A DNA stretch of 64,000 bases from Acinetobacter amyesii (GTDB taxonomy: Bacteria; Pseudomonadota; Gammaproteobacteria; Pseudomonadales; Moraxellaceae), in the NCBI RefSeq assembly GCF_002018365.1, contig NZ_MVKX01000001.1, positions 547,178-611,177 of the forward strand, read 5' to 3'. A program made the translations under genes and the position numbers. Numbering within the stretch: position 1 is the first letter of the stretch; every line of letters begins with the position of its first letter. Under the pieces are notes generated by a model. That model had not been told where the DNA came from and did not search any database. It saw only the letters and a program-made list of their open reading frames with translations. Below, piece by piece: positions 35,089 through 39,087 of this stretch.

Positions 35089-35868
35089 TTAACGACGTTG
35101 GTTATAAATCTGCTGCGCTGCAGGCAGATTTTTACGCATCGCTTCAATACGTTGTGAGTTTGATGGATGCGTAGACAGGAATGATGAACCACCCGCACCT
35201 TCAAGCTTATTCATTTTTTCCCAAAGCGTAATTGCCGATTGAGGGTTATAACCTGCACGTGCCATTAACATTAAGCCACCTTGGTCAGCACGGCTTTCCA
35301 AAGAACGTGAATAAGGCAAACCTACACCAATTTGGCTACCTAACTGCGCAGCTGCAGTGCCCAATTGACCGACATTATTGCCTGCGGCACTTAAACCAAT
35401 ATTCAGCGCAAGATCCGTTAAGGCTTGAGCACCCAATTTACTTTTTGCATGTTCTTCAAGAGCATGGACCATTTCATGTCCCATAACTGCTGCAATTTCT
35501 GCATCGGTTAAATTTAGTTTATTGACGATACCTGTATAGAATACAACTTTACCGCCCGGAGCCACAAAGGCATTGACTTGGTCTGATTTCATGACTGCCA
35601 ATTGCCATTGGAACGCTTGACCCGTTTGGTTCATTTGGTCTGCAAATGGTCGAAGTTTGAGGAATACTGAATTAATTCGTTTATACGTGCTTGATGAGGT
35701 ATCTAACTGATTTTTAGAACGCGCATCCGTCACCATCTGGTTATAACTTTGTGTTGCTTGCGCGTTCAATGTAGCAGTATCCGCTCCTGCCATATCTGCT
35801 ACTGTCGCACAGCCCGAAATCGTCATTACACCGGCCATACACAGGCTCGTTAGAATTATTTTTTTCAT
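35089..35868 (-). CDS. M48 family zinc metalloprotease, lipoprotein (copy 1)
   Basis: A 259-residue envelope protease. A lipoprotein signal peptide ends at Cys20 (TISGC). The catalytic motif HEMVH is at 131-135 with the third-ligand region ESRAD at 191-195, as in the LoiP/YcaL/BepA group of M48 proteases that control outer-membrane protein quality. There is no TPR domain, so it is LoiP-like rather than BepA-like. It is collinear with a paralogue at 36387-37193 (same residue numbers for every motif), only a small membrane-protein gene apart, so the two arose by tandem duplication. It has its own A/T-rich leader, and a hairpin-poor T-run follows the gene. Confidence 0.92.
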   Translation of the reverse strand: MKKIILTSLCMAGVMTISGCATVADMAGADTATLNAQATQSYNQMVTDARSKNQLDTSSSTYKRINSVFLKLRPFADQMNQTGQAFQWQLAVMKSDQVNAFVAPGGKVVFYTGIVNKLNLTDAEIAAVMGHEMVHALEEHAKSKLGAQALTDLALNIGLSAAGNNVGQLGTAAAQLGSQIGVGLPYSRSLESRADQGGLMLMARAGYNPQSAITLWEKMNKLEGAGGSSFLSTHPSNSQRIEAMRKNLPAAQQIYNQRR

Positions 35869-36386: not shown

Positions 36387-37193
36387 TTAACGACGTACAC
36401 TCGAAGGTGTCGCATTTTTATAATATTGCTGTGCTTCTGGCATCATTTTTTGCATAGCAGCAATACGATCATTATTACTTGGGTGTGTAGACATAAATTT
36501 GCTCAGTGCATCATTGCCACTGTTGTCATTCGCATTCATTTTTTTCCACAACGAGATCGCTGCTTCTGGGTTATATCCAGCTTTTGCCATCATCACTAGG
36601 CCACCTTTATCCGCGCGGCTTTCCAAATTACGCGAATACGGCAAGCCCACACCGAACTGACTACCCAAATCAAGCAAGGTTGCACCATAGCCACCTGCAG
36701 CATTGCCTACATATTGTGAACCGATACTCACCGCAAGATTGGTCAGTGCTGAAGCGCCAATTTTATTTTTTGCATGTTCTTCTAAGGCATGCACCATTTC
36801 GTGGCCCATGATTGCTGCGACTTCATCATCCGTGAGTTTGAGCGTTTCAACAATTCCTGTATAGAAAACAACTTTGCCGCCGGGTGCAACATAGGCATTG
36901 ATTTCTTTAGACTTAATCACAGCAACTTTCCACTCAAAAGCCTGACCCGTTTGATTCATCTGATCTGCAAATGGTTTCATTTTCCAGAAAACACGGTTTA
37001 CTTTTTGATAGGTCGCAGACTTGGTATCGAGCACTTGTTTGCTCTGTGCGTCTTTCAGCATTGCGTTATAAGACTGAGTTGCTTGTAAGTTCAAAGATGC
37101 AGAATCGGCACCTGCAAGATCAGCAATTGTGGTACAACCTGACAAAGAAGCTGCTACGGCAAAGCATGCCAAAGATTTTTTATAATTCATCAT
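36387..37193 (-). CDS. M48 family zinc metalloprotease, lipoprotein (copy 2)
   Basis: Paralogue of the protease at 35089-35868. It is 268 residues, with the lipobox Cys at residue 20 (SLSGC), HEMVH at 131-135 and ESRAD near 195, so all active-site residues are kept and both copies should be active. It differs mainly in a ten-residue insertion near the C-terminus (NANDNSGNDALSKF) and a Ser/Arg-rich end. Two adjacent ATG codons (37193 and 37190) are possible starts, and AGAGATC upstream fits either. A strongly structured intergenic element begins about 200 bases upstream of it. Confidence 0.92.
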   Translation of the reverse strand: MMNYKKSLACFAVAASLSGCTTIADLAGADSASLNLQATQSYNAMLKDAQSKQVLDTKSATYQKVNRVFWKMKPFADQMNQTGQAFEWKVAVIKSKEINAYVAPGGKVVFYTGIVETLKLTDDEVAAIMGHEMVHALEEHAKNKIGASALTNLAVSIGSQYVGNAAGGYGATLLDLGSQFGVGLPYSRNLESRADKGGLVMMAKAGYNPEAAISLWKKMNANDNSGNDALSKFMSTHPSNNDRIAAMQKMMPEAQQYYKNATPSSVRR

Positions 37194-37399
37194 GATCTCT
37201 AGTTATTTATAAAGAGTGTCAAATATATACAAAAAATTGACTGACTCAATATTTTTATGCTTATTTTTTTCAAAATCTTTATTTTTCCATTATTTAAATT
37301 TAATATCTGATGTTATCCGGTAAAAATAATTTCACATTTTTTAAATACTTTTAAGTATATTCGACGGAGTCTTACATCTGGGGTTTAAATAAAGGGATT

Positions 37400-37496
37400 A
37401 GCCTTCGGCTGGAGGTACACTTATGAAACAATGTTTCTCATTAGGCAAAATGAGAAGCGTGCTTCGCAAGGAAACCATCTTGCGGTGCAATGCACC
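37400..37496. repeat. Chain of six abutting hairpins
   Basis: Six inverted repeats follow each other with almost no gap, each starting where the last ends: AGCC/GGCT (37400-37410), GAAAC/GTTTC (37425-37437), CTCATT/AATGAG (37437-37454), GAAGC/GCTTC (37454-37465), CGCAAG/CTTGCG (37465-37484) and GGTGC/GCACC (37484-37496). A Shine-Dalgarno-like GGAGG sits between the first two. No T-run follows. The regularity is far beyond chance and points to a structured RNA or a palindromic mobile repeat unit. The family is unknown to me. Confidence 0.8.
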
Positions 37497-37557
37497 TCAC
37501 CGACAAAACTCGTTCACTAGTGTCAAATTATTCATAGTATTGCAAAAACATTTTTAA
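37423..37557 (+). CDS. Possible 44-aa basic peptide inside the hairpin chain
   Basis: ATG 37423 stands seven bases after a perfect GGAGG and opens a 44-codon frame (MKQCFSLGKMRSVLRKETIL... ending LFIVLQKHF). The peptide is basic with a hydrophobic end and no known relatives that I recall. Five of the six hairpins lie within its coding region, so either the structure controls its translation or the frame is an accidental part of a palindromic repeat element. It has no terminator of its own and points toward the convergent purA gene. Confidence 0.35.
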   Translation: MKQCFSLGKMRSVLRKETILRCNAPHRQNSFTSVKLFIVLQKHF

Positions 37558-37580
37558 TTAAAAGTTATCCTGTCTCAAAC

Positions 37581-37667
37581 ACTTGCGGATGACCTTACCG
37601 CGTATCATTCTTTTATTTGAATCAAATGGCACTTCGGATGTTACTGCGTATTATCAGCTAATAATAC
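37581..37667. repeat. Two copies of a CGGATG...TTAC.GCGTAT motif with hairpins
   Basis: ACTTGCGGATGACCTTACCG followed by CGTATCATT (37581-37609) and ACTTCGGATGTTACTGCGTA followed by TTATC (37631-37655) are clearly related. The second copy forms a GTATTAT/ATAATAC hairpin (37648-37654 and 37661-37667), and the first can form GCGG/CCGC. ATTTGA/TCAAAT lies between them. Together with the hairpin chain to the left they make a structured, apparently non-coding element of about 270 bases. Confidence 0.6.
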
Positions 37668-37701
37668 CTGTCGTTTTTTGAAGTTTTATTCTTCGCTCTA
37701 T

Positions 37702-37730
37702 AAAAAAAGCCCCGCTTTCGCGAGGCTTTT
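37702..37730 (-). terminator. Intrinsic terminator of purA
   Basis: AAAGCC-C-CGC/GCG-A-GGCTTT stem (one mismatch) with a TTTC loop; on the minus strand a T7 run follows. It is 23 bases beyond the purA stop codon. Confidence 0.85.
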
Positions 37731-37752
37731 GACATCTTAATTCAACAGCACA

Positions 37753-39087
<1,335 letters not shown>

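Follow-up and report, generated by a model that had tools for sequence, protein, structure and literature searches.

The same 245-bp hairpin core occurs in Acinetobacter MITEs with ends of at least three distinct types, namely IS701-like ends, IS4-like ends and a third type without a known insertion sequence (IS). The IS701 and IS4 transposases are distantly related, and the end types are therefore called distinct rather than unrelated. In Acinetobacter amyesii, the core lies in the spacer between purA and an M48 peptidase gene, within the window (the whole stretch of 64,000 nucleotides that was analysed). There, the feature is in all likelihood an old MITE copy, mobilised in trans by a transposase from an IS with the same ends, and its identity as a MITE is well supported. 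The new part is the hairpin core that is common to MITEs of different ends. MITEs are usually viewed as relics bound to one parent through their ends, and one core with at least three end types in a single genus represents a natural experiment on the question whether a MITE's interior is filler or a module under selection.

The hairpin stretch is flanked by two genes (all positions are those of the window):

36387-37193, minus strand: M48 peptidase gene, one flank of the hairpin stretch
37753-39072, minus strand: purA (Pfam adenylosuccinate synthetase), the other flank

A second M48 peptidase gene is located nearby (35089-35868, minus strand), with a small reading frame between it and the gene at 36387-37193. 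A preliminary description of this spacer had listed six inverted repeats between 37400 and 37496, all of which were found in the window sequence:

37400-37410: inverted repeat 1, AGCC-ttc-GGCT
37425-37437: inverted repeat 2, GAAAC-aat-GTTTC
37435-37456: inverted repeat 3, TTCTCATT/AATGAGAA, 100% match
37454-37465: inverted repeat 4, GAAGC-gt-GCTTC
37465-37484: inverted repeat 5, CGCAAG/CTTGCG
37484-37496: inverted repeat 6, GGTGC-aat-GCACC

Adjacent inverted repeats of this chain overlap, so that the simultaneous formation of all six is impossible. The GGAGG at 37411-37415 and the ATG at 37423-37425, which opens a 44-codon frame reaching to 37557, were likewise present at a good spacing. The hairpins placed within 37400-37557 could thus be confirmed, but this extent was too narrow, as the repeated unit covers 37306-37658. 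Folding energies were compared with those of dinucleotide shuffles (n=200 each). For 161 nt, the z-values were -2.07 on the plus strand (5 of 200 shuffles as good) and -2.50 on the minus strand (1 of 200); they were -3.67 for 37411-37513 (0 of 200) and -3.53 for 37451-37499 (2 of 200). Covariation across related copies is a stronger argument against chance than these folding energies.

With 37380-37560 as the query, ten places at 83-100% identity were found in the own genome, plus diverged or internally deleted ones, the tail of the match list being at chance level. Fifteen own-genome loci were fetched with their flanks and aligned. Judged by eye, the limits of homology were identical in 14 of these 15 copies and fell at inverted repeats, far outside the hairpins that had been noted. 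The search of genome and genus proposed in the preliminary description has therefore found multiple dispersed copies, at the 15 aligned own-genome loci and in other Acinetobacter genomes. Two internal subtypes occur among the own copies, one with the long hairpin chain (the window type) and one in which a simple hairpin replaces the central 49-base unit. Extra hairpins were seen in some cores, at 37421-37440 in the window, in the left part of the core in L012, L013, L014, L016 and L035, and in the right part in L024. In the long subtype, the extra piece looks like part of the unit's first arm copied in inverted orientation, which gives the impression of hairpins inserted into hairpins.

The window element consists of the following parts:

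37301-37305: left target-site duplication TAATA, 5 bp, from the sequence
37306-37658, plus strand: whole MITE copy, 353 bp, where homology to the other own-genome copies ends
37306-37319, plus strand: left terminal inverted repeat, decayed, TCTGATGTTATCCG (consensus ACTGATGTTACGCA in the alignment of 15 own-genome copies)
37363-37607, plus strand: core common to MITEs of other end types, 245 bp, GACGGAGTC ... CGTATCA, seen when 29 copies of other Acinetobacter genomes were aligned with it
37423-37557, plus strand: 44-codon ORF within the element, not regarded as a conserved gene
37645-37658, plus strand: right terminal inverted repeat, decayed, TGCGTATTATCAGC (consensus TGCGTAACATCAGT)
37659-37663: right target-site duplication TAATA, 5 bp, from the sequence

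With its 353 bp, this element remains below 500 bp and has no transposase gene, the non-conserved 44-codon frame being the sole ORF of at least 40 amino acids inside it. In the own-genome alignment, the consensus ends TAACTGATGTTACGCA ... TGCGTAACATCAGTTA form a perfect 16-bp inverted repeat, with TAACTGATGTTACGCA at both ends. The terminal repeats are decayed in the window copy, which differs from the 14-base consensus by 4 mismatches on the left and 3 on the right (4+3 in 28 bases). TAATA, an exact 5-bp direct repeat, abuts both outer ends as the target-site duplication. Copies are dispersed (15 own-genome loci aligned, 12 distinct places by the covariance model), and an autonomous partner with the same ends, the IS701-family element L094, is present in another genome. 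Indeed, among the possibilities that had initially been raised, the MITE-like palindromic mobile repeat is borne out by the dispersed copies, the terminal inverted repeats, the target duplications and the IS with the same ends. REP and REPIN elements are defined by a RAYT (Y1 transposase) partner and a GTAG-flanked hairpin. Because its ends have decayed, the window copy is probably immobile at present.

At the purA locus of the best-matching relative (G012), 138 bases separate two matched blocks, compared to 556 in the window. The core model had no match at the purA locus of 25 relatives, 24 of these loci holding at least 600 bases beyond purA and one, L133, ending 69 bases beyond it. No exact empty site for the window copy could be aligned among the relatives because their spacers are too diverged.

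We searched 148 sampled Acinetobacter genomes for the exact 16-bp end TAACTGATGTTACGCA, hereafter the T1 end. It was found in 11 of them, and a reversed control pattern had 0 matches. Eight exact inverted pairs were obtained, of which five span 308-359 bp, two span 108 bp and one spans 1120 bp. The 1120-bp element (L094, from genome G082, another Acinetobacter) contains a single reading frame of 354 amino acids encoding a transposase with Pfam DDE domains. This protein belongs to the IS701 family by the NCBIfam model NF049921 (E 9.8e-102, 340.6 bits, cut-off 250), and the element is flanked by a 5-bp TAATA duplication. A further T1-ended IS701-family element, with the same ends, an AAATA duplication and 79.5% DNA identity to the L094 element, was found on the A. 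schindleri plasmid pHZE23-1-1 (L116, 1001-2125). It directly adjoins the aminoglycoside resistance gene aph(3')-VI. The two 108-bp elements with both T1 ends (G082:C29:75801-75908, L104; G108:C25:9284-9391, L093) have about 76 bases inside, which is too short for the core, and are possible minimal T1 MITEs.

At E <= 1e-30, the own genome yielded no L094-like transposase, and 1 of the 148 sampled genomes encodes one. The T1 copies show an exact 5-mer duplication at offset 0 in 5 of 16 cases, where 0.56 are expected (0 of 5000 permutations), and at offset 0 or 1 in 8 of 16 cases, versus 1.06 with permuted partners (0 of 5000); the duplications are a mixture of 5 and 6 bp. An IS701-family element with the same 16-bp ends is the likely kind of mover for the window MITE. 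Its transposase would bind both ends of the 353-bp unit, which would then be moved into the spacer downstream of purA and leave the TAATA duplication, and the ends of the window copy would have decayed after insertion.

ISAba11 resembles these elements in that its transposase, like that of L094, belongs to NF049921, in that the inner part of the inverted repeat, TTACGCA, is the same as in the T1 ends, and in its 5-bp duplications, as described in the excerpt of PMC7885321. However, its transposase and that of L094 share 25.6% identity over 88% of the query, the outer half of its ends differs (TAGGACTTACGCA versus ACTGATGTTACGCA of T1), and the window element is without a transposase.

Copies from other Acinetobacter genomes align over 37363-37607, frequently without alignable ends. 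End types were assigned by the flanks of 106 copies (80 fetched by place, 10 of the 15 own copies and 16 of the 29 others), with end motifs that were derived partly from copies later typed with them:

T1: ends of the element of the window copy
T2: TAATGCCAGTCAGTTAA
T3: TAATACCATTCT / TTGATTGGTATT
T4: ACCTGAGTTCGAT

This gave 32 T2, 15 T1, 12 T3 and 11 T4 copies, and 36 copies with no recognised ends, compared to 0 T1, 0 T2, 71 T3 and 2 T4 assignments among 2120 mononucleotide-shuffled controls. The window copy (L039) fell just below the typing threshold ('none') and was added to T1 afterwards, because it aligns to the other copies. T3 finds its support mainly in the fixed end position (G123, 8 of 8 copies; G064, 2 of 3); the 3-bp duplication, seen in 8 of 10 copies versus 4.58 permuted (104/5000), is weak. 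Two of the 12 T3 calls (L011 and L268) are probably false, since about 3% of the shuffled controls pass. For T4, neither the exact 5-mers at offset 0 (1 of 11; 464/5000) nor the mean match (1212/5000) was significant; significance was reached only by exact 5-mers at offsets 0 or 1 together, in 5 of 11 copies (2/5000). The T4 ends are similar to those of T1, and the two types may be of one IS family.

The T2 ends also bound a 1390-bp IS4-family IS. Duplications of about 10 bp flank 22 of the 32 T2 copies versus 0.86 permuted (0/5000), and 12 of the 32 are inserted in terminator-like hairpins (stem of at least 7 pairs), compared to 4 of 320 control positions. Such a hairpin at the insertion site was seen in none of the 16 T1 copies, in one of the 11 T4 copies and in none of the 12 T3 copies. 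The end type therefore goes with the target, the enrichment in terminator-like hairpins being limited to the IS4-like copies. An IS4-family IS of about 1390 bp with the ends TAATGCCAGTCAGTTAAG was recorded in L151, L152, L154, L158, L159, L163 and L172 at position 1501, and in 7 of 7 copies read by eye the flanks carry the halves of a terminator-like hairpin. This IS looks like a terminator-targeting one, and the same-ended MITEs behave in the same way.

A tree was built with a 'quick' method from 102 of the 106 cores (four G144 rows were dropped), and 45 of its 99 inner branches are drawn open. On this tree, the end types roughly cluster. The typed rows require 5 changes of end type, the minimum being 3, and 23 changes with a minimum of 4 are required if the unassigned rows are counted as a state. 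The 5 changes versus the least possible 3 suggest, on a weakly supported tree, that changes of ends are rare. The internal hairpins belong to the 245-bp core, which is not specific to the window's MITE; such a core would rarely acquire new ends and hence a new transposase.

The centre of the core is a 49-base unit for which covariation suggests the following helices:

37451-37499, plus strand: four abutting helices, drawable as a four-way junction
37451-37454/37496-37499: outer stem, TGAG/CTCA
37455-37458/37461-37464: arm 1, with a 2-nt loop in the window copy
37465-37470/37479-37484: arm 2, CGCAAG/CTTGCG
37485-37488/37492-37495: arm 3

Alignment A1 comprised 39 of 44 copies, L050-L053 and L033 being dropped as members of the short subtype without the hairpin core, and alignment A2 comprised 34 of these 39 (L049, L048, L023, L026 and L024 were dropped). 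The four helices abut without unpaired bases. Among 33 distinct sequences, 97.5% of the cells in these helices are paired (0 of 500 shuffles), as compared to 33-45% in slid controls. Double-change cells number 25 versus 5.3 in shuffles (0 of 500), and 5 pairs have a double change versus 2.5 in shuffles (15 of 500 as high). These double changes are confined to arms 1 and 3. In pairwise comparisons, stems differed on average by 0.111, loops by 0.291 and flanks by 0.329, and the corresponding values for the own-genome copies alone were 0.091, 0.102 and 0.178. The covariance model R1 scores the window copy with 93.9 bits. In L272-L275 of genome G144, which have no recognised ends, arms 1 and 3 of quite different sequence still pair, judged by eye.

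As a single strand, the 49-base unit prefers one long rod, built by pairing each strand of arm 1 with one of arm 3. In the window copy, the 2-nt loop of arm 1 prevents closure of the innermost pair in a single strand. When modelled as RNA, all 34 of 34 sequences have the rod as the lower-energy form, junctions with 2-nt loops being unscorable and counted against the junction. The four-way junction is a candidate fold. As DNA, the rod is lower in 20 of 34 sequences and the junction in 11 of 34, with the unscorable 2-nt-loop junctions (that of the window's arm 1 included) again counted against the junction. For the rod, 87.0% of the cells are paired, 459 of 500 shuffles are as high and there are 2 double-change cells; its pairing is no higher than that of shuffles, which means that the rod is without covariation. 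In the best fold of the whole 161-nt plus strand of the window copy, arms 2 and 3 remain, but the TGAG strand is paired to the extra hairpin upstream. The choice of RNAalifold is a third pairing that retains arms 1 and 3 and lengthens them. Since the arms covary and the rod does not, evolution seems to have kept the local arms, although energy favours the rod.

Model R1 matches 68 of 148 Acinetobacter genomes (E <= 0.001, strict filters) and can thus serve to annotate intergenic repeats in about half of the sampled genomes of this genus. With strict filters, it matches 21 of 199 genomes of a family-wide draw, one of them outside Acinetobacter, and 1 of 194 genomes of an order-wide draw, namely the own genome only. 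The match outside Acinetobacter lies in another genus (G184:C5:330176-330254, E 2.9e-13). In the own genome, 13 matches correspond to 12 places, one being read on both strands, and the counts per genome elsewhere (up to 24 in G093) are possibly inflated by such double-strand reading. A BLAST tally of 147 of 149 in the genus (E <= 1) is too loose to be a prevalence figure. An exact 24-base core motif occurs in three named records, of A. brisouii, Acinetobacter sp. BY419 and A. stercoris. When genes were taken as ORFs of at least 90 amino acids, 40 of 40 copies were intergenic, with raw counts of 22 in tandem, 16 in convergent and 2 in divergent positions. This placement is compatible with the purging of copies from promoters, or with copies being harmless or useful near the 3' ends of genes. 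A phage origin was rejected, as there was no match in 50,697 phage records. The same applies to plasmid carriage, for which there was one match (104 bases at 74%) in an A. baumannii record of 3.97 Mb that is classed as a plasmid, where R1 detected nothing at E <= 0.1.

The covarying arms and the presence of the core between different ends support the view that it may have been selected as a module and re-ended; most likely, it would be a structural module kept during element copying. Nonetheless, we consider it a real, if lesser, possibility that the core is a neutral passenger without a role, the palindromes of which persist only via template-switch correction and descent from one old MITE. 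Template-switch repair can yield compensatory changes in short palindromes without selection on structure, and the double changes of the central unit lie in two short local arms (1 and 3), the kind of place at which template switching would operate. No double change occurs in the outer stem or in arm 2, so that their pairing may be plain sequence conservation, and the energies favour a different fold. On the other hand, the stems change about three times more slowly than the flanks (0.111 versus 0.329; own copies, 0.091 versus 0.178), and the core persists between several end types.

Selection of the core as a module may also be taken further, and here we infer a role for the hairpin core. It could be a self-standing genetic module, in effect parasitic on MITEs and surviving through a switch of ends, a reading that we regard as speculative and rather unlikely in this full form. 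Each change of ends would bring a different transposase and target preference, and the folded form, be it a DNA cruciform or an RNA, would be selected as useful to the element.

It is improbable that the core represents a structured regulatory RNA gene, in other words the functional part of a small RNA that the mobile ends only spread. The stems covary and are slow to change, the copies lie near gene 3' ends, and MITE-derived sRNAs are described for Coxiella in the excerpt of PMC10969869. However, no promoter or terminator stands out over 37150-37800 (5 promoter-like sites versus 2.9 in shuffles, 0 terminator-like ones), the copies are dispersed, and the core was not found in 80 of the 148 Acinetobacter genomes (E <= 0.001, strict filters). 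Moreover, Rfam gave no match in the window at the gathering score; the 17 relaxed matches over 37250-37750 were all below gathering, and a known Rfam family was rejected. Of the structured small RNA that had been suggested at the outset, the stem covariation was thus retained, but the single syntenic copy gave way to a dispersed repeat.

Lastly, the idea that GGAGG and ATG start a real 44-codon gene for a small, translation-controlled peptide has the good spacing of the window copy in its favour, but it is hardly credible and was rejected, because the segment with the start codon is absent from 7 of the 15 own-genome copies and reads ACG in 7 of the 8 that have it, leaving an ATG in the window copy only and no conserved gene.

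A literature search of titles and abstract openings, with most subscription papers outside its scope, returned no description of this repeat, a text search for the end and core motifs gave matches to an 11-letter motif only, and the excerpt of PMC3224125 contained nothing on this Acinetobacter repeat. Related elements have nevertheless been described. MITEAba12 of A. baumannii is, like the window MITE, non-autonomous, with 16-bp ends and an IS parent in the Moraxellaceae, but according to the excerpt of PMC6382973 it is an AT-rich element of 113 bp with an 81-bp core, 9-bp duplications and ISAba12 as the proposed parent. QMITE, ERIC and Correia elements are also short palindromic bacterial MITEs, some of which are transcribed; they belong to other hosts, and the excerpt of PMC10969869 makes no mention of a core common to different end types. 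ISPsy8, ISPa11 and ISPpu9/10 insert into extragenic hairpins (REP palindromes), according to the excerpt of PMC1525189, much as the T2-ended elements insert into terminator-like hairpins. The targets of the T2 elements, in contrast to these REP targets, look like intrinsic terminators.
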